DNA from: Polytrichum commune
Taxonomy: Eukaryota; Streptophyta; Polytrichopsida; Polytrichales; Polytrichaceae
Assembly: GCA_950295325.1 (NCBI GenBank)
Contig: OX485806.1
Location: 13,952,001 to 14,016,000 of the forward strand
DNA length: 64,000 nucleotides
Direction: 5' to 3'
Position 1 is the first letter of the stretch. Each line of letters begins with the position of its first letter. The position numbers and the translations under genes were made by a program. Positions 1-63,855 of this stretch are shown in pieces. The notes under the pieces were generated by a model. The model searched no databases. It was not told the origin of the DNA and was given only the letters and a program-made list of their open reading frames with translations.

Positions 1-1
1 T

Positions 2-214
2 ATGTACGGTATGGAGACACCAAGTGAGACCTCTTATAGTAGCGATACGGAATACACAAGTGATAGTTCAAGTGGTAGTATAGAGTCAACGGCACGGACT
101 CCATTTAGGAGAGGGATATCCTTAAGGGCTTGTGTAGCTAAAGCGGCCGGATGGACGTTAGAAGCAAACAAAGACAAAATAGCACCCGAGCATAAGGAGG
201 TTAAAATAACATAG
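2..214 (+). CDS. Possible terminal exon of an unidentified gene, cut by the window edge
   Basis: An open frame of 70 codons starts at the window edge and ends at a TAG at 212-214. The N-terminal part is rich in Ser, Thr and acidic residues, followed by a basic stretch (TPFRRGISLRACVAKAAGWT). The composition is less biased than random AT-rich sequence, and it lies just downstream (in minus orientation) of the transposase-like gene, so it may belong to the same element or to a neighbouring copy. No family is recognised. The frame may continue upstream outside the window, so the Met at the edge need not be the start. A competing minus-strand frame covers the same bases and looks less protein-like. 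Confidence 0.25.
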   Translation: MYGMETPSETSYSSDTEYTSDSSSGSIESTARTPFRRGISLRACVAKAAGWTLEANKDKIAPEHKEVKIT

Positions 215-929
215 TTAACTTGTGCATTCTCCACATACGTATTGAAATTGTACATTGAGTTGTTAAAAGTGAAATTCCAGTTAAATCCAAGACCACTTGA
301 AGGGTGAACCTTGCACTATGGACTCATCCAAGTCCAAATCCAATACCGCGGAGGAATGTGAGCCCAAACCCACTACTCGGACTACGGACGCTTAAGGGTG
401 GGGGGTTTGGCCTCACAGCCCAACATCGTTTGGCTGAGTTGGGTGGTAATCTTACAATGTGCCACTTGGAAGCAAGACAATCTGTCTCTAACACGGATGT
501 AGTATGAGCTACACCATGAATTGTAGAACTCAACGATTCCTCTATGCGTTGACGAGTTGCTCGGGTGTTCGGACGAGGAATGGAATAGTTCACTTTGTCG
601 GGTCGATGAGAGTCACAATCAGCACCCGGTGGTAGGTTGAGTTTGCGTTTGGTGGAACCAAAGAGCTCTGACCCTTCCAATGCACAATCTCTATTGTTGA
701 AGTTTTCTGCCCCTGGATAAGACTTCATGGCATCGGCCAACATTTTTGGATCTCCACACCTGGCAGCCGCTTTGAGTTTCAAGGATGCCGAATCAGGACC
801 TTTACCATCAGACCCCCCTTTCAACCATGTGCGGTAATTTGCAATTTGCATGAAGACACGGATCATGTCGTCCACTGTAGCTTCATATAAACAAGTCATC
901 TTGCTGCCGGACTATTGGAGCCATTTGTT

Positions 930-1300
930 GTGTACAGTCTCTGTAAGGTTGCATGTTGGCATTTCCGCACGCTCTTCTATTGTCATATCCTATGAACAAC
1001 ACACAAATACAAGGATAAGACAAACATAAGATAGATTATATATCTAGGTTTGGGTCGTTCAACCCAAAATGGCTGCCACGTTTGGGTCGAACGATCCAAA
1101 CTGCTTATAAGGTTTGGGTCGTTCGACCCAAACTGCCTACAAGGTTTGGATCGAACAACCCAAACTGCCTACAAGGTTTGGGTCGAACGACCCAAACTGT
1201 TTGTTGTTTGTTATGTACAGTCTCTGCAAGGTTGCATATTGGCATTCCCGCACGCTCTTTTATTGTCATATCCTATGAACAACACAGAAAGACAAAAATA
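930..1300. repeat. Duplicated intron-exon junction of the transposase gene
   Basis: About 100 bp around the exon 2 acceptor is present twice, at roughly 930-1030 and 1206-1312, with about 85-90% identity by eye. Both copies contain the acceptor and the codons for DMTI-ERA-MP-CNL-ETVHNK. The leftmost copy continues into the rest of exon 2 and is therefore the functional one; the other is a dead partial exon. An array of palindromes lies exactly between the two copies, so the duplication and the array arose together or one provoked the other. Confidence 0.7.
1047..1199. repeat. Palindrome array, family A (GTCGNNCGAC), five units
   Basis: There are five copies of a roughly 22-bp palindrome of the type TTTGGGTCGTTCGACCCAAA, separated by spacers of about 10 bp resembling TGCCTACAAG. 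The central dinucleotide alternates between TT and AA, so the symmetry is kept while the core varies. Some units carry single changes on one arm (GATCC, CAACC). The array sits in the intron of the minus-strand transposase gene. It could be binding sites for an element-encoded protein or a hairpin-forming RNA; the sequence alone does not decide. Confidence 0.85.
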
Positions 1301-3488
1301 AGAAAAACATAGGATATATTATATTGAATAATGAAGTTTGATATGTACTTACAAGTAGCATATGACCACCCCATTGTCTGTAACGAAAGTGCCAAAATCC
1401 CAACCACTCTGAAAGGCCAAGGATGCCTTCTTCGGAGGCAGCTCCAGATGACAACCACCAAGAACGAATAACATGGTACTTGGTCTCAGCGTCGTCCATT
1501 GTTTTCGCGTCTTTGTAATCCTTGCATATTTGTTTGTGTTGAAATTGCAATGATGGTTTGATATACTTTTGGGTCACCTTATCCAAGCTTGCGGACCAAT
1601 GGAAAAAACATGTACGCTCACGTGCAACCATGGGTAGACTTGGATCACCATCCCCGTAAATCGCCTTCACCGCATTCCAATTAGCTTGAGCACTATCAGC
1701 CATAAACCCTTTGAAGTTTACGTTTGGTACATCATTATCTGCCATGACAGCATTCAAATTTTCCCAAAAGAGAATTTGCGCTGCACCATCTTCAGATTGC
1801 ATGTCACAACACGCAATAGTCAACACTTTACAGTATCGACTGTCGTACACATGGCAAGCTATGGTCGTCCAGTCCTTCAAACGTTTGACATGGTCAAACA
1901 TAATCCATGAATTATCCATATCCCCACTGACTTGCATCATCTTCACAAGATCCACACCACTACCTGGAAGGTCTACAGACATCTTGAAAACAAACACTTT
2001 GTCCTTTGACTGCCCTGGGAACCGACTACCATGGACGAATTTGAAAGCATAGTGGTCTTTGAGCGCCATAATACTATCCATAGTTCCCATTCCACTACGC
2101 AAAAAACGCTTTGATCCATATACAAAGTTACGACAATTTGGAGAGGCAAGAGTGCTGAATTTGTCCATGACGACCTCTAGGGATGAACCAACCAAGTGAT
2201 GGCCTTCGACATTTGCGGGAGATTTGAGAAGGTAATCGGCCAAGAATTGTTTGCTCGCCGCCATAACTATGACTGAATTTTTTCCTGTGGGTGTTTTCAA
2301 TACTTCATTTGCAACGCATTGGTATGCCATGTCTAATGATTCACGGCATGTGCCATTGGCCACAGGGTGATCATGTACACCAAGATGAATGCAAGCCCTG
2401 AACATTCCAACGGATGTGGAGTGAATGTATATGATTCGAGCATTACACAAAGCAATGCACACAGGTGTGGAACGACATACCTTACACTCGACAGTGGACT
2501 TAGTAGGGGGAACAACACCCATAGCAAATGGGATAGGAGTTGAACCAACCCATTCAGTGTTGTTCCGGAGGCCCCCATTGCGATTCATGTAATCACAGTA
2601 GTCATTATGACATTGGAGATGACCATCACAAGTAGAGCGCCGGAAGGACAGTCTAAAATCATTTTGGATATTCGTGGTTTTGGTGGTGCACCAAGGGTGA
2701 CCGTCGCACATCTTGTCCATGCCGTCCATTGAGCGACCATACGTATTTGGAGCTTTGAATGCCACAAGAGGCAAGAGAAATAAAACATCACCATTAAAAG
2801 AAGATGGTAAGTACTTGACTTCACGAACATCTATACTGTCAAAATCAATGGATGCAAGATCGGACTTTGATCTTCTTCTTGACTTTGTCAGCTTCAAGGC
2901 ATCAACCATAGTTAACCCTGTAGATGAAGGTGAAGGGTGTAGTGGAGGACGTTGAGAAGGTGAGATTTGGGGAACCACCTTCTTGTACATAAGACCGCAA
3001 GGGAATTTGGCTACATGTATAGGAAGTTGGGAAGGAGTAGAATGAACACTTCTAAATGGAAATGGCGATGTGTTTGAAAGATCAATAGATGCACAAATGT
3101 CATCTTCTGAATCTGATAGCACAAATACACTATTATCAAGGGGTTCCACCTTAACAGGTGTGATAGAGGGAATTTGAACTGTGGATGTACCGGATTCGTT
3201 TGTCAAAATGACAGTTGAAGCTTGCATTTGAGACTCAGAAAGTCCTATCACCCTAAACGAACCAGGTCCTAAAATCCAGATAAAACCAACATCAATTCTA
3301 TTTTTTGGAACCAAAACCGTTTCATAAACCTTTCCATCTGCAGAGTACATCTCATGCTCTAAATACATGGTTCATATCTGGAGGTTGAATCTCAAACTAA
3401 GTAAATCCTCTGAAACACTCACATGACCATCATCTTGTTGTGGCAAGATGAAGGGAACAAAAGATCCATCAGCTCTAATGGTAGCCAT

Positions 3489-4010
3489 AGAAAATCAAAA
3501 GAACATATGAACAATACATCACAAAAATATGGGGTGAATGTTGCTTTTGTATAGAGTTGTGTGAGGAAATGAATGGAAATGAAAACGTGTGATACAATAA
3601 TGGATGGAGATGAAAGCGTGTGATACATAGCATCTAATAATACAGAAATGGACATAATACAATAATAGTCAGAGACTATTTACGAGCAAGATGTACACAA
3701 AACGGCGTCAAATACTAAAAGGATTGGTAGAAATTTAAAATATATATATGTGGACTGACGCAGATGTAGAGAGAATTAAAATTGGTTGGAAAAATAAATT
3801 ATTGATCATTATGAATAGAACAAAGTAGGTGTCAGAAAATTTTGGCGGATATAACAAAAATAAACACATAATGACAAACGAGTTGAAATATCTCGTTCAT
3901 TGAACGCCAATTACAAAATGTGATCATAATATACGCCGGATTTTGTGAGATAGATACATTGGAAGAATAAATGATAGTACCTGATAGAAAACATATCATA
4001 GACACCAACG
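3489..4010. promoter_or_regulatory. Divergent intergenic region between transposase-like and methyltransferase-like genes
   Basis: These 522 bp separate the start of the minus-strand gene from the start of the plus-strand gene. The region is AT-rich with TATATATA-like stretches near 3740 and contains no family A or B palindrome. A shared bidirectional promoter is the simplest reading, by position only. Confidence 0.4.
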
Positions 4011-4344
4011 ATGGTAGACGATGTAGAGAGACCACCCGTGAGGCCGAAGAGAAGACGTAGGAAAGCTTTGTATTTCACTTCCGAGAAAAAGAGGTTAAGA
4101 CTTAGTGTGGAAAAGAATGATGCAAAAAAGGAAGGGAAAAAAAACTTGTTGAGTACGGTAGAAGAAACTATGAAGACATTGGATTTTGATGCGATGGAGG
4201 ATGATGAAGGTGCAAAGAGCAAAGAAGATGTAGACGATCGTATATCAGAGTCCGAATTGAAGACGGGTTCAAAGAAGACGACAAACAAAAAGGTAAGTCA
4301 GTTCAACGTTCACATAATTTGATAGTACATAAGTTGTAAGTTAG

Positions 4345-4920
4345 GACGGAGAACCTTGTACGTTCACTCACATGTCATGTAGTAGCAATTTATAGAGGTT
4401 ATAAATTGGAGAGGAGAAACCCTATACGTTAATGCACATGGTATATAACAGAAATTTAGGAAGGCTAGAAGTCAGGAGGAGAACGCACAGGGTTTATAAG
4501 AACAACTTAAGAGACGAGAAGTTGGGAGGCGAAACCATGTGCGTTCACGCACATGGTTTATAAGAGCAACTTAAGAGGCGAGAAGTTGGGAGGTGAAACC
4601 TTGTACGTTAACGCACAGGGTTTATAAGAACAACTTAGGAGGCAAAAAGTTGGAAGGCGAAACCCTGTGCGTTAACGCACATGGTTTATAAGAGCAACTT
4701 AGGAAGGCCAAAGTTGGGAGGAGAAACCATGTGCGTTAACGCACAGGGTTTATAAGCGCAACTTAGGAAGCCCAAAGTTGGGAGGAGAAACCCTGTGCGT
4801 TAACGCACAGGGTTTGTAAGCGCAACTTAGGAAGGCCAAAGTTGGGAGGTAAAACCCTGTGCGTTAACGCACAGGGTTTGTAAGAGCAATTTAGGAAGGC
4901 CAAAGTTGGGAGGTAAAACG
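4345..4920. repeat. Tandem array of 63-bp units with palindrome family B (TGCGTTAACGCA)
   Basis: About eight or nine head-to-tail units of about 63 bp each combine a 28-bp perfect or near-perfect palindrome (core CTGTGCGTTAACGCACAG inside AAACC...GGTTT) with a 35-bp spacer like GCGCAACTTAGGAAGGCC. The most 3' units are nearly identical, while the 5' units are diverged (GTACGTTCAC, CATACGTTAATG), so the array grew at its 3' end. It lies in the inferred intron 1 of the methyltransferase-like gene. Confidence 0.9.
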
Positions 4921-5335
4921 ACTAGGAGAGCCTAAAATTAAAACAAATATCTATTGTATGAATTTAAATCGATGTTCACAACATAGGAGCAAGAAAACTA
5001 TTCAAAACGAGGTTAGAATGCAAGAAATGACAAATATGACTATTCAAATACTCATGCAATACGTTATAGGAGCTAGAAAATGACACAAAATAGTATAAAT
5101 TGTTTTTTGCCCCGAAACCCAAAATCTACGAGGTGGCCCAAAACAAGGAAATAGATAGAAGAATGAGAAAAGAAAATCATTTCAAACCAAAACAAAATAT
5201 GAGAAGAATTTGTAGCTACGGAGATTTAGATAATATAGCATTTTATTTTATTTTTTATCCCATTAGCATTTTTTTCCAGATTTTACAAGTTTTGGCAAAT
5301 CTACGAAAACTTTTTTTTCAAATTCACGTCTCGGC

Positions 5336-5417
5336 CCTGTGCGTTAACGCACAGGGTCTACGTACTAACGCACAGGCCTTATGTGCTAACGCACAACGTG
5401 TATGCGGTAACGCATAG
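5336..5417. repeat. Cluster of family B sites and half-sites
   Basis: One complete TGCGTTAACGCA palindrome is followed by three degenerate sites (GTACTAACGCACAGG, GTGCTAACGCACAAC, GCGGTAACGCATAG) that keep the right half better than the left. This looks like decay from repeated copies. Confidence 0.75.
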
Positions 5418-5419
5418 TG

Positions 5420-5550
5420 GCTAGAAAGCTGCCAGCGCAGACCCTGTGCGTTAACGCATAGGGTCTACTTGCCTAGCCAGAGGCTTCGCAAAGTTGGGCA
5501 AGTAGACCCTGTGCGTTAACGCACAGGGTCTACGCTGGCAATTTTCTAGC
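5420..5550. repeat. Nested inverted repeat built from two family B palindromes
   Basis: Two arms of about 54 bp (5420-5473 and 5497-5550) are inverted relative to each other around a 23-bp loop with only a few mismatches. Each arm contains a complete family B palindrome, so the segment is a palindrome of palindromes and could form a long hairpin with a secondary cruciform in each arm. It lies within the inferred intron 1 of the methyltransferase-like gene. Confidence 0.85.
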
Positions 5551-5763
5551 GGCTATGCGGGGCCACGAAGAGCCATGCTAAATATGGGTGCAGGGACAAG
5601 TAGTACAAATTGCCACAACCCCAAAGCATTCAGTCTTTCTTCTCTCCTCCGTCGGACCTGAGCTCATCGCTGCAAGCTCTCTCATCAACAGGTGCAGTAC
5701 AAGGTTTGTTTGCACTTTCGTGGTGATTGGGTAATTGCGCATAATCAGGCGTAAATTGCGGAC

Positions 5764-5914
5764 AGTTTGGGTCGGCCGACCCAAACTGTGAGCATGGTTT
5801 GGGTCGAATGACCCAAACTGTCTACCTAGTTTGGGTCGGCCGACCGAAACTGTGAGTATGGTTTGGGTCGGTCGACCCAAACTGTCTACCTAGTTTGGGT
5901 CGAACGACCCAAAC
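5764..5914. repeat. Palindrome array, family A, five units
   Basis: Five palindromes of the TTTGGGTCGNNCGACCCAAA type are separated by alternating spacers GTGAGCATG and GTCTACCTA. Core dinucleotides vary between GC, AT, GT and AA. It has the same unit count and geometry as the array at 1047-1199 but different spacers. A further single family B palindrome follows at about 5952-5981. Confidence 0.85.
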
Positions 5915-8900
5915 CTCGCGTCCAACTTTGTTAGACCTGTAGTTGGACGTACAGACCCTGTGCGTTAACGTACAGGGTCTGGCCTTGTAGTTTTGGGGTG
6001 AGCGGCCACCCTAATCGTACAATATTTAAAGGTGCAAATGACTGTGTCTAGAATAATTTTTGTTGTTCTTCCCTGTGTTCGTGGTATTCTGTTGTTATTG
6101 TTGTTGCTATTGCTGTTGTTTTTGTAATGTTATTGCTAATGTGTTGCTACTTGTTTTGGAATATTTATGAAACTTATTTCATTTGTTTTAGGACCAATCA
6201 ATGGATTTGGAAAGAACGACTCCTATTTGTACTGATGATGATTCCATAATACATTCAACTTAAGATCGTCCATCTCAACAAGTTCATCATCATCAGGACA
6301 TATCGTCAAATCTTCATAATAAGAAATAAAATAAAATAAATGAATCCCTCGATAATTTTGACTCGGATGAAGATAATGAAGGTGACAATTAAACTTATCA
6401 AGAGAAAGTGTTGGAGCTTACGAACAAACGAAAGGTCAATTCCACTTCCACAATTTCTTCAATCCCTGCTGGACCTAATGCTCGCTTGCGTGTACCCTTA
6501 TGTCGCATGGTTCCTATGCCGATTGTGCGTCCTGCTTTGAAGGGTGACATTACTAAATTGGAGGCTGATTATTTTAATGGTTATCGTAATGGTGATTGTG
6601 TGTTTTATATATCGTCCACCGATTCTAAGGAAAACTTTCAATTCGTGGATGATGAGGTTCGCACTTCTTGGAGCCCAAATTGGGCTCAAGCCAATGCCCT
6701 ATTTGAATTTCAATTGGATACAGATTTGTCATTGACGTCATACAAGAACAAGATGTTTTTTATATAGGATGGCAATCACAGATTTCTTGTTTGGAAAAAT
6801 TATATTGACCGCGTATATACCGAAGATTATGAACGTCATGTCTTTGTGGATTCTATCATTTTGGCGCCCGAGCCTGACGACATTCCAAGTTTGTTGACTG
6901 CTATGTATGACATCAACAAGTAATGTTCTTACCTATTTTTTTACACTTATTTCTAGTTTATATTTTGTTTTCCAAATTATATCATCATGAATCTAATCAA
7001 TTTAATGTTTCTTTTAGGTCAACCGAAAATTCTCACGTATCCACCAATTTGGTGCATACTTTATATCGGATGCAAAGTATTGGCACCATGCCTTTGACTT
7101 CCCTCAGAAAGCAACTGGATCCAAAGAGTTATAAACGATGTGAGAAGAAGTCCGTCGAAACTTGGTATTCTTTGACACGACCAATTTTTTTGGATTACAT
7201 GTACAGTGTAAGTTCTTCTACCATTGCTAATATGTGCCTTATGTTTATTAACCTTCATTTTACATTACATCTATATGAACTTATAAATATTGACTTTTGT
7301 TTGATTTTTCAGCAAGAACTTGCTGAGGCTAGCGATATTGCTCTCAACCAGTACAATGAAAGTCATCCTCTTGAACGGACATCAGACGGAGTTTCAAAAG
7401 CAATGTCCGCAGCTGTCAACAAAAAACGTGCAATGTTATCTTCTAGTTTTACGAAATAACTAGCGATTGCCGATATCAACCTTACCTCTGCTGTCCTTTA
7501 AGAAGTTAAGCACCATTGGGGTTGATTTTCGGTGCCTGAAATGCTACAAGAGAAACTTCATCGTGTTGCTGTCAGTAATGTGGATGCAAAAATCAAAGTT
7601 GGATGGCTCAAGCTTTGGAATGGCAATAGATTTGACAAAGATGCATTGCATTTCCCGAAATCGCCCCTCTCTGATTCTGCACTTGATGATTGGTTATCAA
7701 AGTCTACATATTGGGCACAGTTGGAAAAAGAGGCTATCGAAGAGCTTCAAAGTATTCTTTCATCTCCTCTTGAGTTGCCTGCAGATGTGCCTACTCTCTC
7801 CGAGTATATCCAAACCTGGAAGTTTGCGGCTTTCAATTCAATATTCTATCGTGAATTCCAAAGCGGAAAAGTTAAAAAACACAACGGTTGGGATGAGCAA
7901 CCTAATATTGATCTTGCTATGAAACGTGTATTATACAGGTACAACCTAATCTTATTATTTTTTTGATTTTTTTTATTCCATTTGTCAAATTGCCATGGAA
8001 TATTTGACTTACAATATTTTTGTGTGTAGGTATTTTTTATATGTTTTGATTCCACATAAATGTGTTATAGGGGAACCTCGTTTTTTCCCAAATTGGCGTG
8101 ACACTGGTGCAGGAGATTCATGCATGTTCACTACTGAGATTTGTTTGGATTGGTCGCTCCCACACTATGAGGATTGTGGTTGGTATCTTGATTGTCCTAA
8201 GGATGCATGTCCGTCAAGTGAAAAGACAATCCGTCAGATAAATGATGCTAAAAATGTGGATCCTCGTAATACTGCAATTTTGCAAGCACAAATTGTATAG
8301 CTTAAACTTAGAGAGCCAGAACCAAAAGAGACAAAACGTCGTAAGAGGAAACATGTTCCTGAAACCAAAATACAAGATTAATCGGAAATTTGACAACATG
8401 AAGAATTGCTTGTTCTTTCCAATGATTTGGATAAGAATCCACTTGGAGGCGAAAGTTCAAAGTCTGGGTGCGATGTATTGGAATTCCATTACTTGAGCAC
8501 CTATAACGCTATTCATCGTGCGCCAACGAATGTTTTGAGAAAAGAGTTATTCATACTGAAGAACTTTCTCACGCTCTCTTTTGCTCGATCTACTGCTGTC
8601 AAGAACAAGTCTGAAGGGGTTGAAGTAGGCCCTCCTGAGTGGATCTAATGGCGGACATTTCTTGAAAACGTAAGTATTATTGTTTTGGTATTTTCTGTAA
8701 TGTTCTTACTTTCATTTGGATTTTATTTTGTGTCTTATATTGTGATATGTTGTGGTATTTCAGTTTAAAGACAATCGCGAATTTCATGTCATGGGAAGTC
8801 CGACTCCATTTGCCGTTGACTTGGTTTTTCTGCAATTTCCCGACGGTCTTGACTTCAACCTCTCCAATAGACCTGCTGAAATTCCTCTTTAGAATAAATA

Positions 8901-10019
8901 TGACAAGAACTGGATGGTTGCAACAATGTCCTTGTGCAAGTCCATCTTGTCTGATGATGGCGTCCTCATAGTATTTTCTGCTATCGATATGCAAACCAAG
9001 AAGGTTTTGAATTCAACCTTACACAACGGCAACATGAAAGTTCTTAGGACTTTTATTTGCCTCAATTCGTACATGGTGTTCAAGGATCCGGAGTCTCCAA
9101 CCTACACCGTAAGTATAACATATCACAATTGTTTCTATTTAATTATTTTGGTGTTATTTGCATTGTATATAGTTTTAACACAATTTATATTTTTTTGTAG
9201 ACTCCGGCATTTATGGCTCATGTCTTGGTAAGGGATTTTACTACCACAAAATCCACGAGACAACCAAACGCCACTTTTTTTGGCACTGGATTGAAAAGCA
9301 AAAACTTGCTTTTCAATTTTGTGGATGAAAAAAACATGCTTCTTCAAAAATCGGGAAGACCTTGGAGGGGGCCATATCAAAAATCGCCACGTTTTTTTCA
9401 AGATCTTATTGAATTGTTTACACCATCGAATGGACGCGTTGTTGATTTGACATGTTCCACTGGAGTTTCTATCCTAGCAACACGCGCATGTGGCAGACAT
9501 CTTCTTGGATTTGAGGGTGATAATGACATGTTTGAGCACATATTGAAACCGCTTTTGGAAAACGTTTTGAAAGAGGGGTCATCTAAGGAGAATATACAAG
9601 ATCTCACAAAAGAAGATGATAACCTCTCAGATGAGGAGATGCTTGAATTTGAGTGTGAGTAAGTTTTAATACAATAAATTTTTATTCAATTCATTCGTTT
9701 CATTCAATTCATTGGTTCATTTTTATTTCTTCACATTATTTACATGTTTCATCGATTTGATTTCAGGAATACGATTGGAAAGAGGACATGTCTCCCGTTT
9801 TGGGCACATAGACAATTCTTACGAAGTCCAAGCCGTAGCCCGCGTCTCCCATCATATGCCGAGAATGTTGCAATTGCAATGTTGAATCTCGAAGATTCGG
9901 ATCCAAATGAAGAATCTTGCTATAGTTCCAAAATCAATTCGCAATGCAAAGGTGCTCGAATATATATAGATGACGAGGCAAAAGATAGTTTCATGTCTAG
10001 TGCTACTACTGATGAATAA

Positions 10020-10286
10020 AATTTTGGACTTCATGTTGTTTATCCTTCTCAACCCTCTTATTACTAAATCCTAAAATCATCATTTTTAAGGCCACAATTC
10101 CACGGTTATAGGATATTGGTGGCCCTATTACCAAAATTTTCATCTTCCTCACTGCTCATAAGTTACCGCTCATCGCTCACCGCTCATAAGATAGCACTCC
10201 CCACTTATTAATCATGTATGGCATGAAGCATACTTGGCTTTCTCAAGGAAAATGTGTTTATATATATTTGTGTGTGTGTGATGTGG

Positions 10287-10324
<38 letters not shown>

Positions 10325-13300
10325 GTTTTTTCAAACAAATGTTTCATTTCATTGCAAAGATACACATTAAACAAAATCACGGCCACATGTAGCAAAAAAA
10401 TTAAAAAAATTAAAAATCTTAAACGGAAACATCAAGTAAGCAACGCGGTTGACTTAACACGCCCATAATCCAACAACTTGCTCCACAACATAGGCAAAAG
10501 TTGTCGATCCACCCACATTTCATTGCAACCCTTCCAGATAATATAGGGAATAAAACTTTCAAATGCTAGAAACATGAGGGTAAACTTTTTGACCTCGAAC
10601 ATGGTTAGTTGGAACAATTCATGAAAGAATTTAGTCCCCACCTCAAGAAGGATATGCCCTATCACTTCCATGAGAGATTGGAGAATGTTGCTTATCGAAA
10701 TTTTCACAACTTCTTTAAAGATGGGATCGATGAGTTGGTAAGGATCAAAAAATGTTTGTTGGTCGAGAGTTGTATGCAATGGAGACTATCCAAATGGGCA
10801 TGTCATCATCAAGGCTAAAGAAATAATCCAATCCATTCACCACAACAAGACGTCATCCGAAGAGGTTCATTGAAATGCGGGAACCAAGAAGACACATTTG
10901 TAGTCAAGCTTTCCCACATAATGATTTTTTTCTTCCATGAACTAGAATTCAGAAATGCCTCTTTTTTGGAGAGAAAGGACGAGGTGTGGACATTCATGAT
11001 GTCAAAAACCATATGGAGCCTTTAATTACAAAGTTGACCAATGTGCTTCACATCATACCCATCTCTGTCCCAAGGAAACCATTCCCCAATTGAATACTCG
11101 CAAAATACGGCACACAACTTCTTCTTTAGAGGGAGGTTGACACAATTTCAATTGAGAAAACATGGTATTCCATGATGGAGCCACATATCACCAAATCTAT
11201 GTATTTCCTTTTATTCTAAAGTTGGGCAGATGATACCACATCAAATCTCGTTTATATGTCAAGTGCAGCAAGGGTTGGAGTTGTCTCGTTCGATAATGCA
11301 ACATGGAGGTTGGAGCAAACGGGGATCATAGCCACAGTAATTCATTTGCACATTAGAGTTTCACAAACCCTCTCTAAATCATGCCCACACCGTGATGAAG
11401 TACCAAATGGAGGAAAGAAAAAACAAGTATGGATGTTGATTTTTTTCCTTCTAGGGATAATGTAGTTTTTACCAATAGCTAAGCTTCTTTGTGACTTTGG
11501 TTAGCAAGAAGGTGTCCACATCCGAGATACATGGGTGAAGACTTGTTAATGATAAAAATGTTATTCTTGATGTAGCAATATGATGATATAAGTAAGTAGG
11601 AAATAAATAAGGATTAGAAGAAAAAAAATTAGATGAAGATGAGGTAGAAGGTTTTCTAGATGAGGAACCCATGTTTATGGAATGGTTAAAAATGAAGGGC
11701 ATGGGATTAGAGACTTTGTGACCAAAGAATATTTAGGCGGAGGGGAATAATGTTTTGTGTGACCATTTTTTATTAAGTACTTTGACGCTACTTCTTGTGT
11801 GGGTTGTTTATGTGGTAAAGGAGGATAACATTAGTTTTTGTATCAACGATTGTATGTGTCCCTAGAGTATCTAGGCGATAAGCATATATAGAGTCGAGAC
11901 TAATCACACCCAACCTGGAGGTTGTATGAATCCAAAGGTAGTTTGTAAAGTTGGGTCGAGGTTCTCACTAGTACTAGTGATCTTTGGGGTTAAGTCTTGT
12001 ATCAAGGAATAAGTGATAAAGATTGTAAGCAAAAATTGGACGATAAATAATTGAATTCCTATCCACAATAGAATGGATGATTTGCATAATGATATATAAT
12101 CTTAACATAGGCTAATGGGTATTAAGGTAAGTGATTTTTGGTAGAATGTTAAGGTAATTTTATACAAGCAATAATATCTTAAGGAAGAGCTAATAGCTAA
12201 ACAACATATTAGATTCAACCAATACGATAAGATGGGAAGGTAGTCGGATTGTATTGGCAAAGTGACCCGGTAATATCAAGAAGGGCAAAAGCCTGTAATA
12301 TTAAGAAAATATAGAAAGGACGAATTTTCAGTTAGTAGATAAGGGATAGTTATGAGTACCGGTAGTAGTGACACTCTGGTAAAAACCTATTGTCAATGTC
12401 ACCTTCAACCCTCAACCTTAGACGGTGTAACCCGCTGCTGACTGGTTTACACAAACATTACCCTTATCCAAATTAGCTTGTTCTAAGTTGATATTCTTGA
12501 AGGTGGTCCAATGTACCCTACTTTAGTGCTCAACATGAGGTTGTGTTTTATTGAATCTCTAAGGAGAAGATACCCTAGGATTTCAAGTTTATGTTCTCCT
12601 AAATCATAATGTCGAGGTTAAGAGTCTTAAAAGGAAGATCATTCCTATACACATACAATACCATTCATGGTTTGAATGACTTCAAATCCTATCCATCAAT
12701 CTACTTTCAAAACATCGGGATCCTTGCCTAAGTTTCTATTACGAGGCAAGCATACTCCCTCACTAATTCCAAGCTACCTAGTTTAGATAATTCCCTTGAT
12801 GTCATGGAATCCCTATTCCCTCCATTATTCATAAGTGCATATCACTCCGATTGTCATTCAAAGGTGCTTGATTAATAATCACCCACGTTCCTAAGGGGTA
12901 TTCCAATTCTTGGTCATTACTTGCCTAAATTCCCAAGTGTCCCCCTTAGTGGCCTTAAATTCCCCTAAGTCTACATGTGGGGTAGGATAGGAGATTTGAT
13001 GGCAAGGTGGCGGCTTAGCCCACTTTAGAGCATCTCTTCTTGCTTGCCTAAGCTTAGCACTCGACAGCTTAAGTTTCCATCGAGTAGATTTCCCCTATCA
13101 ATTACCTCAAATCCGAGATTACTTTGAGGAAGGTAATTACAGTCTTTTCAACCTAGGTGTCCACTTCGATTGACGGCCCCTCGTGTCAATCTTCCACGTA
13201 TGCCTCGCCCATGTGGTTTGTTGCTAGCCACTTGGCCACTCCTCTTCTCCTTCCCTCAACAATTTACTTATTTTTGTATAATTTTGTGTAAGCTTTATAT

Positions 13301-29625: not shown

Positions 29626-31560
29626 TTATGTCCGGCACCCCTTGATTACTCTAAGGACGCCATCGGAGTTCGCAGACACCAATGTACAATCACCTGGTTT
29701 CGTCGTCCAGCAGACGGCACTTACTAACCTGCTATCAATCTCCTCCACATGCTCCTTTGTCGCCGCTACCTGTTGTTTAGAGCGCCAGCTCCCCTGAGAG
29801 TCCCTGTTCATCTCGTACGCTGGAGCGCGAGCTTTGGAGAAGTCGTGTATGAAAATAGGACCGGACTTTCGGCTGTCGTAAGCGAACGCTTGATTTGTTT
29901 CGGAGCCACATGCAATGAGGCCGCCTTCGGACCACACCGATAGGCCAGTGAAGTTGCGCACATTGTAATGTGCGTCAAAAGTTCGGAGGAGCGGGGTTTG
30001 AGAGGGCGACACATGTTTCTTCACCATAGGAGTATTGTCAGCCCCGCAATTGGCAATATTCCACAGCTTCACCGTGCTATCAATGGAGGACGACACCAGG
30101 CAATGGCGATTGAGGAAGCGGACATAGCTGGCGGCTCGCTGGTGGTGTCGAAGGGTGAGCAGGGGGTGGGATTGAATGCGTGTGTCATAGACATAGACAT
30201 TACTGTCTGCGCAAGCGAGCGCAAGAAGAGAAGAAGAGGCGGGACCAAATTCCGCACAACAAACCGGGCTGGCATTGGGAGACGAGATGGTGGCCACACT
30301 GTGCTCTGAGCTATTGTCCCACATGCGGACGGTGCCATCATCGGAGGCCGAAGCAATGAGGTCAGGCATGTCTTTGTTATAATCTATGCTCCATATCCTT
30401 TTCCCCCCATGCTCATCCCTTTCGGTGATGGCGAAGTTCCTCTCGACATCCCACTCGGCGACGACGCCATCATAGTCCCCGCACGCCACCACATTCTTCT
30501 TCTCCTGGTACCACTGCAAGCTGCTTAGCTTGGCAGGAGTGCAAACCTCTTGGACACAGCATCGCGCGTGGTCAGTGGATGTCCAGTGGTCACTCTCCGT
30601 CCCTCCCGACCTTTTCCGCATGCGCCGCTGCTTCAAATACTCCTTGGCCTCTTCCTCGTCATCATCTTCATCATCGTCTTGAACAGGACCAGCTGAGTCC
30701 GACAGGAGCGATTGGTAAGCATAGACGCGAATCTTACGAGCGATACCTCCGGTTGCAAAAAACTCATTCGACTTGTCGAATGCAATACTGCCGATGACAT
30801 CCGTGCACGAAAACATCTGATTCCGGCATTGCACCGATGCAATTACATCAAATTTCCAACCCCTGCATGGCCCAACCCCAGGTACATCCTCTTGGGAAGA
30901 GGATTCTTGGGAACTCATCCACTCCGAACACTGTACGCCACTATCTTTCTCATTATCATAGCGATGTGAAGCAGGACTGCGTGGAACTAGGACGTCGAGG
31001 CTCTCGTCTAAGACATGATGCTGAGTGACTAGATCTGTGACACTGTGAACTCTCGGCACGGCAACCACATCGTCCAATAAAATATCATCTACTTTCCTGC
31101 GCACTCCTGCATGATATAACTTCTCCAAGGTTGGGAATGACATCGGCCGCGGGATGCGTAGGTCGTCGCGTCCATCCTCCTGAAAAGGGCGATCCCGATC
31201 GAGCATGGGAGAGGGCAGCACCCTCTTCTGCAATTTCGTGTTCTCGGAACATCCGCAACCGCTATAGATGCTCGAGCCACTTGAATCCTTGACCCGATAC
31301 TCCCTCGACAACTCCTCCTCTGCCTGAATCGTATATGAAGATGGCTCTTTGGATGCAATTTTCCGACGCTTCCGACCAGAGTGACCAGAGTCGGAGATCA
31401 CGTACGAGGATGTCTTAAAGGAGAAACGGCAAGGCTTGCTATACTCGAGCCATACTCGGGATTCTAAGGGATTCGACAGTGCAAATCCTGGTGTTCCCAC
31501 CACATCGCCTCTCCTGTGTGCCCTGTCAAGGGATTCACCTCCTGGAGCCTGAAGGAACAC
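29626..31560 (-). CDS. RUP: RUP-type WD40 repeat protein, repressor of UV-B photomorphogenesis
   Basis: RUP proteins bind the UV-B receptor UVR8, favour its return to the inactive dimer, and work with CUL4-DDB1 in nucleus and cytoplasm. The 644-residue frame has seven WD40 blades typical of the COP1/SPA/RUP group: DVIGSIAFDKSNEFFATGGI (255-282), CTPAKLSSLQW (340-371), DEHGGKRIWSIDYNKD (382-415), SPVCCAEFGP (431-461), RAASYVRFLN (472-501), NVRNFTGLSVW (533-563) and SAVCW to the end (614-640). There is no RING domain (as in COP1) and no kinase domain (as in SPA), which points to RUP. Residues 1-235 form an extension absent from the much shorter Arabidopsis proteins, and an acidic loop (295-305) sits between blades 1 and 2. 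The body is intronless. The first codons MFLQ overlap a good acceptor (TTCCTTCAG before GCTCCAGG at 31549), so the true start may lie in an upstream exon. Confidence 0.85.
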   Translation of the reverse strand: MFLQAPGGESLDRAHRRGDVVGTPGFALSNPLESRVWLEYSKPCRFSFKTSSYVISDSGHSGRKRRKIASKEPSSYTIQAEEELSREYRVKDSSGSSIYSGCGCSENTKLQKRVLPSPMLDRDRPFQEDGRDDLRIPRPMSFPTLEKLYHAGVRRKVDDILLDDVVAVPRVHSVTDLVTQHHVLDESLDVLVPRSPASHRYDNEKDSGVQCSEWMSSQESSSQEDVPGVGPCRGWKFDVIASVQCRNQMFSCTDVIGSIAFDKSNEFFATGGIARKIRVYAYQSLLSDSAGPVQDDDEDDDEEEAKEYLKQRRMRKRSGGTESDHWTSTDHARCCVQEVCTPAKLSSLQWYQEKKNVVACGDYDGVVAEWDVERNFAITERDEHGGKRIWSIDYNKDMPDLIASASDDGTVRMWDNSSEHSVATISSPNASPVCCAEFGPASSSLLALACADSNVYVYDTRIQSHPLLTLRHHQRAASYVRFLNRHCLVSSSIDSTVKLWNIANCGADNTPMVKKHVSPSQTPLLRTFDAHYNVRNFTGLSVWSEGGLIACGSETNQAFAYDSRKSGPIFIHDFSKARAPAYEMNRDSQGSWRSKQQVAATKEHVEEIDSRLVSAVCWTTKPGDCTLVSANSDGVLRVIKGCRT

Positions 31561-33780
31561 ATAACAATCATGTAAGAGTTTCGCATCAACACATTCGAAT
31601 GCAATTCAAGGATGCTCATTGTGCAATTGCCGAATGACCTTACGCACACCTCCAATGCCGATTCTTACGCGGCGTTCCCTTCAAATGTTTGAAATTCAAG
31701 GACGGTGCCACATTACCAAATTTGTTCCGGAGGCTTGTTCACGTACAACTTTTACGACTCTCAAGATAACGTTCCGGGCCCTTCATGATCTTCACCAAAA
31801 AGTGCCTGCTGATTGATTAGTCACCTTGCCTAATATTAGCCCATATCTTTCCCCTGTTTTCCCCACGGGCTGCTAATTCTAATTTAGGGTACCTCCAGCC
31901 CGAGACAAAATTGGGTTACTTTATCATTGAAAGCGTAAAGTAGCTGGTGACTGCGTGTCGCGTGTGACATTTCATTCATCCGCTCAACTGCTTTTTCCCC
32001 GCAATAACTCCCACAGAATCAAGAAGGTTGCTATAGCAAGCATTCCGAAGTGATATCCCCAACAGCAGTGTGCTTCGGATCGCTTGAGGTAATGTGGAGC
32101 ATAAACGGTATGTTGAGAAGACTTGGAAATTATAGGTAAGTCTAGTTGCGAAAGCTATGAGGCCTCTGATGTGACTAGATGGTTTGATACTTCATTCTTG
32201 ACCGCTGTTCTCACATACTGTCTTAAACATTGTAAGCAATGGATTCTCAAACAGTAAATTTTCATGCTAAGGGAAGATTTCGTACCACGGCTCCAATTCC
32301 GACCTCCCTGCGACACGAGCTACCCAATGCTCGCGCTCCCGCCGTAGTGCAACCAGACTTCCACTCCAGAAGAAGTTCTGATCCAGCTCCGGCGCTAACA
32401 GCTGCAAACATGAAAAGTCCTTGACAGATGAGAATTCAGCTGCAGCTCACTGTCGTCGCTGCTGCTGCAGTGCGCGCAGTGCTTAGCTAGTCCACTGAAT
32501 TTTGGAGCTTCTCGAGAGTTTAAACGAGTTCCCAATGCAGCCACGTCTCAGACATACGAACTGGAATGCTGCTTCTCAAGTGACAACTGGTACAGGAAGC
32601 TCCACACAAGGACTGCGCGTATCGGCGACCTGCATATTATATCACCAATACATGTATGCTTCGTCAGTCCAGGTCGGGTGCCTTGCTCGCTCGCTCCCTC
32701 CCTCCCTGCCTCCCTCCCTCCCACTGAGCTGTACACTGGAATGGGACTGGAAAGCTCAAACGCACCAGCCAGAACGGCAACAAGCAGTAGCTCCTGACGG
32801 TTCTAGCCAGCCAAGTTCTTACTCCAGGGCGAGGAGCAACTCAATGTTGGTCCGACCCATGTGCGAAATTCCAGTTCCCGCTCATGAAGCATTCACCCTG
32901 GAAATTCAAGTCCCAGTATCCATGGAAGCAAACTACTCGACTTCTACAGATTCTCGCACTCATCGACGTCAATCAGCGAATGTACCACGCGCCTACGTCA
33001 ACCCCCAATGCAACACTCACCCACACTCCACTCAACCACTCAAGCATACACGTTGACCCACACGGTTCCAGCGCCGCACCTCTCTCACTCAGTGGCCGTC
33101 CGTGGTGGCGGGGGCGGCGGCGGCACCAGCACCAGCAGCACCAGCAACGCCGACGGCTACCAAACCAACACCAAGAACAAGAACAACGAAACCTGGTGCC
33201 TCTCTCCCCCCCTCTCTCGATCCCCCCTTGTCTTTCCTTCGTTCTTTGAGCTTGTGGACGTGATCGAGACCGGCTGTTCCAGAGGGCACGGCGACTGTTC
33301 TCCCTCTCTATCTGTCTTCAACGGAGCTGATAGCGTTGAGGAGTAACAACTTTAGCAGCGTGAGATGGCATTTGAGATGGCAGCGATGCGAGCGACGCGA
33401 TGGGAGGGGAGGATGGCGGGGTGGAATCTGGAGGGGGTGGGGGGGGGGGGGCTAGCGCGCGATTGGGGAAGGAGGGGGGGCCACGACGGGGGAGACACGG
33501 TGGCCGCCTCAACGCCTAGCACTGGCCTCGCGCGGCGTTCGGGGCCACGTTGGCCGCGGCTGCAAAAGGGAACGCTAACTCCCTCACGCGAGCCCGCCTT
33601 TTCCCCCCGCCCCTTGCTTTTACTTTCTCCCTCGCTCCTGGTACGTGACTCGCTTGCCTGAGCCTTCCCACTAACTCTTTTGTGTTATATTTGTGTGTGT
33701 GTTTGAGCGAGAGGGAGTTGTTGCACAATAATATAGAGAGAGGGCATGGTTACGTACACCAAAGGCAGTAGGAGGCCATG
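31561..33780 (-). promoter_or_regulatory. GC-rich upstream region of the RUP-like gene
   Basis: This is the region 5' of the minus-strand RUP-like gene. It is clearly GC-richer than the window between about 32280 and 33660 and may contain 5' UTR, a first exon and the promoter. It includes a CT-rich run at 32683-32722, ACGT elements (GACGTC at 32965-32970, TACGTCA at 32994-33000, CCACGT near 32540, TACGTGAC near 33641) and G-runs at 33434-33483. ACGT elements are the known binding cores of HY5-type bZIP factors, which activate RUP genes. No convincing coding exon was identified. Confidence 0.4.
33420..33500 (+). other. G-run cluster, candidate G-quadruplex
   Basis: Several runs of four to thirteen consecutive G occur within 80 bp on the plus strand, i.e. 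C-runs on the template-sense side of the RUP-like gene. Such spacing permits G-quadruplex formation on the plus strand. Confidence 0.5.
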
Positions 33781-61057: not shown

Positions 61058-61612
61058 TTAGGTATGCAAGTGTTATTTGCTTATGTTTTTGGATCGGATG
61101 CCTATATTTGATTGGTGTGTAGTTGGGTGAGGATCAAAGGCCAAACATCATAAAACCCATGTTTTCAAGGGATTGGACTACGTCTTCAAATTTAGCAATT
61201 ATTCCACACGTTCTCAAAATCTCTCATTTACAACTTTCTCTTATTTGTCGCCCCCCACTTAACATAACATCACTTAGCTAATCAGATGTGCTCCACTGCC
61301 CTCGCTTCAAAATCATCCTGAAGCAGTGAGACTCCGACGTCTTGAGTTTGTATTCTCGAATCGCCTACTGGATCCATGAACACAACTCATCAGCTGAGTA
61401 ATGTTATGAACAAACTCTCCGATTCAAATAGATCTTTTGCATCTTTGATTTGAATTGGACACCCTAGGCATGCATGTAGGGGCTAATCTTACTAACACCC
61501 ACTACTTAAAGGAAAAATGTCATCTTTGTATAGTTACCCAAAAGGATTGATGAGGTAAGCTTGTGATAGCTAAAAATATAAGACACCTGTATATGTGAGA
61601 TACGGTTGTTGC

Positions 61613-61660
61613 TCAGGGCATCTGCAGCCGGCTCGCCAACGGCTCCCGCCAACGGCGCAT
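61613..61660 (+). repeat. Candidate terminal inverted repeat of a PIF/Harbinger element
   Basis: The GC-rich GGGCATCTGCAGCCGGCTCG immediately upstream of the Myb/SANT-like gene resembles PIF/Harbinger ends of the GAGCATCTCCAAC type that I know from plants. The opposite end lies outside the window, so this is an inference. Confidence 0.35.
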
Positions 61661-63292
61661 GGCGGGCCCGGTGCGAAAACGGCCTCCCAACGGACACTGC
61701 ACAGCTCCCTCCAAACTGCCGAGGGACGCCATTGAGCTCCCGGTCTCTCCAAATTTTGCACCTGTGGAGGGAGAAGTTTTCCTCCCTTCAAACTCAGTCA
61801 ACGCCAGCATGGCAGGGTTGGAAGCGGGAAGGGTGAGGAAAGGGAAGAACTTTACAGCAGAGGAGGAGACATGCTTGTGTAGGAGTTTTTTGGCAGTGTC
61901 GCAGGATCCAGTGTGCGGAAATGGGCAACGCAACACCGCATTCTGGGAGCGCATCACTGCTCTCTTCAATCGCGTGAAGGCAAGGGGGAGTCCGTTGCGA
62001 CCTTCAAGGTCTCTAGAGACCAAGTGGGGGAGCATCAAGCATGATGTCTCGAAGTTTTGTGGTGCGTACAAGCAGGTTTTGGATTGTAGAGAGTCGGGCA
62101 CTTCACTAGAGGATGTGCTAGATCGTGCATTGGAATACTATAGAGACAGACACCCCAAGCAACAAGGATTCACCTTCCTGCATTGTTGGGCTTTGTTGAA
62201 AGAGGTGCCCAGGTGGTGGGAATCTCCTCTGGACGTCCAGAAGAGAAATCACGGTGGAGAGGGGAGTCCGGGAGGTGTGGCTATGGCAGCCCGGAGAGCG
62301 GTTGTGCACACGCAGCCTGCTGCTGTTGTCGAGGGGGATGCTGTGGAGGGTGCCAGCGCCGAAGGGGAGGGTTTTGGTAGTGTAGAGAGCGCAGCCCGGG
62401 AGTTGGTGAGGCCCAGGGGCCAGAAGGCATCGAAGCAAGACCTGGTGGAGGTTGGGCGCCGAGACTCAATCTTGAAGTCTCAGGCAAGGGCTATTGAACA
62501 AATGGCCGCCGCCAACATGCGGAAGGCGGAGGCAATGCAGGACCACTCGGCGATGGCATTGTTCAAAATGAACCTGGATGAGTTGGACCAAGGCGCCAGA
62601 GAATACTTCGAGCTTCGACGCTCCGAAGAATTGGAGAGGATAAGGCGCCGAATTGATGCGGAGAAGAGGGTGGCCGACCAGGAGAGGGTGGAGCATGATA
62701 GGCTCATGCTGGAGCGGGAGGCAGATGGGCTTCGGGGGAAACGACCGAGGACTGCACCGACGAACGCCGCTCCTGTAACCGCACAGACAGCTCCCTCGCC
62801 GAGAATTCCTGCTCATGTGCCCGAATCGACAGCTCCCTCACCGAGAATTCCGAGTCCTCCTCCGGTGGCACCTCCTTCATTGCCAGGTAAGGATTTTTGC
62901 AATCTTTAGGGGTTTACAGGCTTCAGGGATTTCTGCATTCTTGAGGTACTGGCCGCTCGGGAGACCAGCAGAATTCTTTTCTGCTGGTTTGGTTTTGTTT
63001 TTTTTTTGGATTTCTTATTCGGCTGTGCTCTTTTGCAGATGATTCCCAAGGTGACTACTGGGAGGATTCAGGGATCATCCCAAACACCCAACACCAATCT
63101 CAAGCACCAAGCATTCAATCTAATTACCAAACACATAGAAGTGTAGCCAGCTCTCACCCTCAAGGATTGTATAGTGTAGAAAACTCAAGTGCAGTGGATG
63201 GAAATCCCAATGTGATTCTAGGAGGTCAAGAATATGTGTACAGAAACTTTGGACAAGGTCTAAACCTAAATGCCCATTTCTACTCTCAATGA
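61659..63292 (+). CDS. Myb/SANT-like, NAM-associated DNA-binding protein of PIF/Harbinger type, two exons
   Basis: Exon 1 is 61659-62886, exon 2 63039-63292; the intron is GT-AG (GTAAGG, TTTTGCAG) and splits an Asp codon. Residues about 58-170 match the Myb/SANT-like fold of plant proteins often labelled NAM-associated: FTAEEETCLCRSFLAVSQDP, FWERITALFN, RSLETKWGSIKHDVSKFCG, then GFTFLHCWALLKEVPRWWE. The C-terminal half has an Arg/Glu-rich helix (RRSEELERIRRRIDAEKRVA) and Pro/Ser-rich tail. Such proteins are the ORF1 partners of PIF/Harbinger transposases, needed for nuclear import and binding of element ends; some are domesticated. The start could be the Met at 61809, since the first 50 residues arise from GC-rich sequence resembling a transposon end. 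The coding region is intact and GC-richer than its surroundings. A transposase would be expected to the right, beyond the window. Confidence 0.7.
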
Positions 63293-63359: not shown

Positions 63360-63700
63360 TTGTGGCCTGTGAAAGCTGGTAGAGTCTGAAATTTGTTCAA
63401 ATGTAGTAGACTGCGAACTGTGCTAGGGTCTGAAATCTGGTGATATCATGTAGCCTGTGAAATCTGATAGACTATGAAATCTGTTGATATGTAGCCTGTA
63501 TGGCTACACTCTGAAATCTGCTGAAATCATTATAGACTCTGAAATGTGCACCCGAATGTTTTTAGACTCTGCAATCTGCAGCCGAATGGTGTAGCCTGTA
63601 ACCTTTGCTAGACTGTGAAATGTACTGAAATGTTTGATAGACTTTTTGTAGCCTGAAATCTTTACTGCACTCTATTTGTTTCATTTGCTTGATTTCATAT
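63360..63700. repeat. Degenerate short tandem phrases downstream of the Myb/SANT-like gene
   Basis: Phrases such as TAGACTCTGAAATCTG and GTAGCCTGTGAAATCTG recur about ten times in 300 bp with variable spacing. No coding potential; likely slippage or duplication within the 3' region of the element. Confidence 0.6.
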
Positions 63701-63703
63701 AGA

Positions 63704-63855
63704 CTTATGAATGACACACAAAGAACTTGATTTCATATAATCTTATCAGTGACACACAAAGAACTTGATTTCATATAATCTTATCAGTGACACACAAAGA
63801 ACTTGATTTCATATAATCTTATCAGTGACACACAAAGAACTTGATTTCACGCATA
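63704..63855. repeat. 38-bp minisatellite, about four copies
   Basis: The unit GACACACAAAGAACTTGATT followed by TCATATAATCTTATCAGT is repeated head to tail; the three right-hand units are almost identical and the left one is diverged. Confidence 0.9.

Follow-up and report, generated by a model that had tools for sequence, protein, structure and literature searches.

What is a gene resembling a bacterial DNA methyltransferase doing beside a transposase-like gene in a moss? The question was raised by a 64,000-nucleotide stretch of Polytrichum commune DNA (contig OX485806.1, positions 13,952,001 to 14,016,000; hereafter the window), in which a first-pass annotation, made from the letters, had described a mobile-element-like unit carrying a beta-class methyltransferase-like gene divergent from a gene like those of Mutator-like elements (MULEs). 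We found that the methyltransferase-like gene is a standing part of a transposon family and not a one-off capture, and that it exists in at least six diverged types (A to F, with the window copy of A-type). With a probability of about 0.5, we propose that its protein is a non-catalytic DNA-binding accessory, which would recognise the palindromes found in elements of its own type and counteract silencing as VANC does for VANDAL transposons.

The methyltransferase-like gene lies at 4011-10019 on the plus strand. Its eight in-frame exons hold 1174 codons with 12 internal stops and zero net frameshift, and the seven exons counted from an ATG at 6201 keep their phase across 1077 codons. The parts of the gene, including the region for binding S-adenosylmethionine (AdoMet), are as follows.

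4011..4292, plus strand: exon 1, basic and then acidic, joining 6192 in frame
4293..6191, plus strand: predicted intron 1, with palindrome arrays
6192..6919, plus strand: exon 2, conserved N-terminal domain (IWDGNHRFLAW in copy B7, interrupted by TAG in the window)
7018..7207, plus strand: exon 3
7313..7938, plus strand: exon 4
8030..8669, plus strand: exon 5
8764..9108, plus strand: exon 6, motif IV-like QFPDG region with one TAG; query exon of the A-type genome search
9201..9658, plus strand: exon 7, AdoMet-binding motif I region (DLTCSTG ... GFEGD)
9767..10019, plus strand: exon 8, with the final stop TAA

The motif order read at first in exons 6 and 7 was confirmed: LQFPDG, then KNWMVATMSLCKSILSDDGV, then DLTCSTGVSILATRACGR...GFEGD. 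The motif IV region is thus N-terminal to motif I, as in the beta class. Profile comparison with HMMER and hhalign (HHpred itself was not used) gave significant amino-methyltransferase matches, in agreement with the initial assignment. The window exons matched phrog_67 'DNA methyltransferase' at 1.8e-8 and PF01555 at 26.5 bits (E 7.3e-6), 0.2 below the curated cut-off of 26.7. Relatives scored above this cut-off: 29.5 bits for P0001, the single cluster found in the protein database (63 member sequences, 96% to a B-type copy), and 32.4 and 35.3 bits for the loci L005 and L004. P0001 and L005 covered positions 1-216 of PF01555, which matched A-, B- and C-type rows alike (3/3 rows). When a three-type profile was compared with structures, DpnA was matched at 3.5e-5 and CcrM and RsrI weakly (0.61 and 0.94). 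Alignment to phage beta-class enzymes by hhalign gave 96.8% over 75 columns around motif I, against 0.3% for the reversed control. The window protein and P0001 aligned over about 530 columns (24% identity, E 5e-41); therefore, the whole protein is common to both, not the domain alone. Judged by sequence, the second gene is descended from beta-class amino-methyltransferases.

Neither alignment A1 nor the 1076-aa A-type protein found a match in protein searches, a weak negative in that A1 missed even P0001, and no relatives were found in viral contigs. The DGNHR motif of the N-terminal domain resembles ParB by eye only. A ParB-like domain was not supported: hhalign gave 2.3% against 3.4% for the reversed control, and neither Pfam nor the PDB spoke for it; the alignment consisted of five sequences, leaving out two further phage stretches (L056 and L057). 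Ordinary bacterial or phage DNA methylases, one of them a ParB-methylase gene, were seen on the small contigs C10 and C12 (L001-L003), probably as assembly contamination. The PF01555 matches on these two contigs were set aside because the contigs look phage or bacterial.

The aromatic residue of motif IV stacks on the target base in active enzymes. Neither the catalytic pattern (D/N/S)PP(Y/F/W) nor the SPPY of the rotifer enzyme N4CMT was found: the motif is QFPDG in A, DIPDG in B, EYPDG in C, DYPDG in D, EYPDG in E and DIPEG in F. An acid stands in place of the catalytic aromatic in 17 of 18 less-decayed copies, in six types and down to 24% identity. The A-type motif is known from three copies only (the window copy, B7 and A3, QFPDG in 3/3), that of C from two and those of D, E and F from one each, while nine of ten less-decayed B-type copies, and P0001, have DIPDG. 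Motif I reads DLTCSTG, DLSVGTG, DLTAGTG and DMTASTG in types A to D, with the glycine-containing AdoMet loop kept. In the C-type exon, the ratio of non-synonymous to synonymous rates (dN/dS) was 0.21 on 39 synonymous and 33 non-synonymous differences, indicating purifying selection. The altered motif IV had been put down to DNA or RNA binding in place of catalysis, or to simple decay. Both parts hold: the window copy is decayed, and the altered motif recurs in six types. The alteration is consistent, and binding and inactivity are what we infer from it.

The transposon itself was delimited by comparison of copies. The unit in the window is a single 13.7-kb insertion of a Mutator-like DNA transposon; it starts at C4:13948535 on the window's contig, 3466 bp to the left of the window, and stops at window position 10202. 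The first-pass annotation was correct that 4011-10019 belongs to a mobile unit, but placed its limits too narrowly. The element's ends, GAGGGAAGCTATCTTATGAGC on the left and GGGGAGTGCTATCTTATGAGC on the right, form inverted repeats of about 52 bp that are 76% alike over a 58-bp alignment, 6 bp of which lie outside the element. Duplications of 10 bp flank three insertions: ACTTATTAAT in the window, GAAGAATGTC at copy B7 on contig C7, and TCTGTTACCT at a B-type element on contig C1. Inverted terminal repeats with 10-bp duplications are traits of Mutator-like transposons, for which 8-11 bp is expected. In blastn pieces, copy B7 was 95-98% identical to the window element, insertions in either aside. 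One such insertion, nested in the window copy (W; a W coordinate minus 10000 gives the window position), spans C4:13950241 to window 408 and includes a tandem repeat at W 9468-9722. As an element, the window copy is dead.

1..408, no strand: right end of the nested insertion, about 2.17 kb in total (W 8241-10408, without counterpart in copy B7)
1266..3488, minus strand: large exon of the transposase-like (MULE-like) gene, ATG at 3488, one stop just before 3371
3489..4010, no strand: divergent intergenic region of 522 bp between both ATGs
10151..10202, minus strand: right terminal inverted repeat (GGGGAGTGCTATCTTATGAGC...), from copy comparison
10203..10212, no strand: 10-bp target-site duplication ACTTATTAAT, perfect; its partner abuts the left end, outside the window

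The start codons at 3488 (-) and 4011 (+) reproduce the 522-bp divergence noted before. Past the stop near 3371, the minus-strand frame from ATG 3488 is open to 1266; it is kept as 742 aa in many other copies, and seven D-type copies have 794-aa forms. The 701-aa transposase frame had no significant match in Pfam or the PDB, including the MULE DDE transposase. A SWIM-like zinc-finger motif, CTCPDF..YCKH, was present in W (same strand, left of the window), B7 and C1, with a Pfam SWIM score of 9.8 bits (cut-off 19.6). The putative Mutator-like affiliation thus rests on the ends, the duplication length and the SWIM-like motif, with no Pfam transposase match.

We then asked how regularly the two genes occur together; all genome counts given here are lower bounds. 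The A-type exon query had 682 candidates, of which 150 were scored: 140 A-type rows (two overlap), of which 31 have an exon interrupted by a stop, and 10 C-type rows. Among 150 scored of 988 candidates for the D-type query, 22 D rows covered most of the query at 78-100%, 19 E rows were at 64-70%, and about 100 rows, C- and F-type mixed, were at 43-63% or partial. For the transposase query, 64 of 2720 candidates were scored, and 56 of these 64 have a methyltransferase-like gene divergent at 2.1-7.8 kb, which upholds the pairing suggested by the single locus. An A-type exon was the divergent partner at that distance in 49 cases, compared with a mean of 0.3 and a maximum of 3 in 200 trials of random placement of A-type rows. 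The partner was a D-type gene at 5.9-7.0 kb in seven, the 794-aa forms, and the other eight had neither an A- nor a D-type gene inside the distance used. In a C-type element, too, a transposase (49% identical) is divergent to the methyltransferase-like gene.

Palindromes in tandem arrays accompany the two genes. Those of the window element are as follows.

1046..1199, no strand: tandem 32-bp repeats with the palindrome TTTGGGTCGNNCGACCCAAA
4482..4919, no strand: 64-bp tandem repeat with the palindrome CCCTGTGCGTTAACGCACAGGG; more sites at 5338, 5445, 5510 and 5959
5764..5914, no strand: second array of the TTTGGGTCG..CGACCCAAA palindrome

TGTGCG-N4-CGCACA occurs at ten window sites between 4538 and 5974 (at most one mismatch; seven exact) where 0.03 were expected, all of them inside predicted intron 1. 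TTTGGGTCG-N2-CGACCCAAA has ten sites (at most three mismatches), at 1049-1196 and 5766-5913. Arrays with dyads, between the genes or in introns, were found in five of the six types (A, B, C, D and F). The D-type array has AAGGGTGGCCGTTAACGGCCACCCTT in a 105-bp unit between the apparent exon 1 and the N-terminal exon, the C-type array, about 6 kb long, is made up of units of 212 to 287 bp in which an imperfect dyad surrounds GGTGCCTGTAACGGCACC, and the F-type units, 85 bp long and located between exon matches, contain GTTAGANTCTAAC (dyad by eye). The TGTGCGN4CGCACA core is common to A- and B-type despite unrelated repeat units (64 versus 104 bp). Perfect palindromes of at least 16 bp numbered 7 and 4 in A and 8 in D against shuffled means of 0.15-0.3; the dyads of B and C are imperfect or spaced.

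The motifs were also counted across the genome. There were 852 TGTGCGN4CGCACA sites against 4 for the reversed control, and among 50 listed, an A-type gene lay within 9 kb of 43 and within 25 kb of all 50, with none near B. The B-type 18-mer occurred 27 times (control 0), always with a B-type gene no more than 9 kb away; an A-type gene was never that close, and four sites had one within 25 kb. For the D-type 18-mer (143 sites, control 0), none of 50 listed was within 25 kb of A or B.

Between A and B, the second gene is far more diverged than the transposase. Relative to A, the second gene is about 30% identical in D (25-42% by exon) and 24% in B, and the transposase 86-89% in D and about 74-81% in B. 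Arrays differ between types even where the transposases are 74-89% alike; in the one D element read, both the array and the methyltransferase-like gene differ from those of the window, with a transposase 86-89% identical. Either the second gene and the array co-evolve very fast, or they are exchanged as a cassette. The synonymous divergence (dS) of the transposase between A and B was about 0.5, which favours cassette exchange; the transposase dN/dS between these types, 0.19-0.30, indicates purifying selection. Both the fast co-evolution and the exchange are compatible with an array-reading protein.

The proposed mechanism is as follows. With the catalytic aromatic of motif IV lost in favour of an acidic residue, the methyltransferase-derived protein would have come to bind DNA in a sequence-specific way, perhaps with AdoMet still held. 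Its targets would be the palindromes of elements of its own type, and it would act on the promoters of that family. The outcome would most likely be that host silencing is counteracted, as by VANC for VANDAL, or else that the element is otherwise switched on. The anti-silencing step is what we infer from the array together with a putative pseudo-enzyme. Only tentatively do we suggest a second, independently evolved and sequence-specific anti-silencing system of plant DNA transposons, in which a pseudo-enzyme derived from a bacterial-type amino-methyltransferase reads palindromes that stand in an intron or in the divergent promoter region of its own element, and reader and palindromes may be exchanged as a cassette among near-identical transposases, by which types would escape both host silencing and each other.

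Several observations weigh against this proposal. Some concern the protein. One B-type copy, at C1:9662153 (L013/L005), has DIPYG with the canonical aromatic, among nine close relatives with DIPDG, and five older, stop-ridden B copies gave DIPDG, EILDG, EIPNG and KIPNK once each, with one unreadable. The N-terminal domain had no profile match and no significant PDB match, and structure models had a mean predicted local distance difference test (pLDDT) score of 35 and 37, too poor for use. Others concern constraint. All three full-length A-type genes read are broken, with 12, 4 and 7 stops, and no full gene was intact end to end among the copies read. Changes specific to W (27 missense, 7 synonymous, 8 nonsense) indicate no constraint at recent tips; the three A-type insertions decay freely, and the substitutions in the window copy look neutral. 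B-type pairs gave dN/dS of 0.49-0.89 on few changes, with three copies too alike to tell. The remaining ones concern the elements and arrays. The E and F stretches (8.6 kb each) had no transposase match, and the E-type stretch read had short simple repeats only, with no palindrome array and no N-terminal match. Perfect palindromes of at least 16 bp numbered only 1 and 2 in B (means 0.2 and 0.3) and 0 in C. Only 19 of the 50 listed D-palindromes are within 9 kb of a D-type gene. Type-specific arrays would be expected anyway, each type being a separate transposon family, and the transposase could be the array reader instead.

Two of these points touch on further observations. The other 31 of the 50 listed D-palindromes are more than 9 kb from listed D-type genes (e.g. 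C1:10405157, C2:30654932 and C3:16474914); such lone palindromes are possibly short derivatives with the array. Regarding the stops, recoding of TAA/TAG as Gln was rejected, as B7 and A3 have Q, K, W, E and S codons there, and so was pure deamination or editing, as C>T and G>A make up only 27 of 46 W-specific changes.

Among other explanations, the one that survives best, although we consider it unlikely, is a transposition cofactor that binds internal palindromes or ends and aids integration or copy number, without any role in silencing. The mudrB gene is thought to encode such a cofactor for MuDR. A second gene of a DNA transposon, present beside 56 of 64 scored transposase copies, could play this part, and copy A3, without the transposase exon, has kept most of the gene, although its exon 1 is truncated and its 3' end disrupted. 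The palindromes, however, are internal and not at the element ends, and the divergence between A and B is far greater in the second gene (24% identity) than in the transposase (about 74-81% amino-acid identity).

It is improbable that the protein is a working amino-methyltransferase with an unusual motif IV, which marks the DNA of its own element with N4-methylcytosine (4mC) or N6-methyladenine in the manner of N4CMT. In bdelloid N4CMT, mutation of SPPY to APPA abolished the addition of 4mC (PMC8885841). An active enzyme would agree with the beta-class motif order, with a motif I preserved in every type read for it (A-D), and with the DIPYG of one B-type copy, but D or E occupies the catalytic aromatic position in all six types.

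An autoregulator or repressor of the two promoters of the element, with the palindromes as operators for copy-number control, seems quite improbable. Inverted-repeat sites between divergent starts are typical of dimeric regulators, and such sites do sit between the divergent start regions here; many-site arrays and turnover of types would, however, be better explained by an arms race. It is very improbable that the gene was captured as in Pack-MULEs and hitch-hikes without function for the element: MULEs capture genes (PMC6446971), a B-type element on C1 holds an extra protein-kinase-like stretch (by eye) and the window copy is decayed, but there are six types, the same divergent order is found in the four with the transposase seen (A-D), the C-type is under purifying selection, and 109 of the 140 scored A-type exon rows are free of stops.

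The non-catalytic, palindrome-binding accessory that we favour has its closest parallel in the VANDAL/VANC system of Arabidopsis. There, short motifs stand in tandem repeats, in VANC introns and upstream of the transposase gene, and the accessory protein is described as far more variable than the transposase (PMC5735166). Both systems have a MULE-type transposon, a variable extra gene, and type-specific motif arrays in introns or upstream (PMC5735166, PMC10398659). VANC, in contrast, has DUF1985/DUF287 where the moss element has a methyltransferase-derived protein; the motifs of the moss are dyads, and its anti-silencing is putative. DUF1985/DUF287 gave no Pfam match when P0001, the threaded pieces of the window gene and the N-terminal alignment were scanned, and the protein of the moss element is not a VANC despite the similar layout.

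Other mobile elements with methyltransferases resemble this one less closely. DIRS1-like retrotransposons carry a methyltransferase domain of unknown function, but they are tyrosine recombinase retrotransposons with the domain in the pol region, as opposed to a separate gene with an altered motif IV in a DNA transposon (PMC3266345). Retrotransposons of dinoflagellates and charophytes also took up DNA methyltransferases, which in their case are C5-cytosine enzymes that methylate CG de novo (PMC5890265). Bdelloid N4CMT shares the PF01555 domain, the permuted motif order and a eukaryotic setting; it is described as a host gene with a catalytic SPPY, active, and acting on transposons rather than carried by them (PMC8885841). 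A eukaryote-wide MULE survey reports duplications mostly of 8-11 bp, inverted ends, SWIM in many elements, and accessory motifs or open reading frames such as PMD, DUF and SET; the moss element shares the inverted ends and target duplications and has a SWIM-like motif and an accessory gene, whereas the main text of the survey never uses the word methyltransferase (PMC6446971). No comparable element appeared in the literature consulted, although one may still be in print.

Some neighbouring features were also recorded. At C1:9657653-9658760 (L007), a B-type element contains a broken protein-kinase-like stretch (GSYGVVWK, HCDLSFTNIIFHF, GDWGSAT; by eye), between the palindrome array and the methyltransferase-like gene, which is perhaps a captured host gene. 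Elsewhere in the window, a long, intron-poor WD40-like gene at 29626-31605 (-) presumably resembles a plant RUP/COP1-type regulator, and a 436-aa frame at 61599-62909 (+) is similar to what we take to be a trihelix/Myb-type DNA-binding protein. Two tandem repeat arrays (44-bp and 38-bp units) lie at 63361-63849, near the right end. Rfam and tRNA searches gave no match.

If the proposal is true, MULEs have recruited sequence-specific helpers from two unrelated protein families, and the strategy of VANC would be general. A bacterial-type DNA methyltransferase fold would have been reused, apparently without catalysis, in well over 100 places of one eukaryotic genome, and the types would supply natural protein-palindrome pairs for altering chromatin at chosen sites. 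One could also test whether the 'methyltransferases' carried by transposons, those of DIRS among them, have to be active at all.

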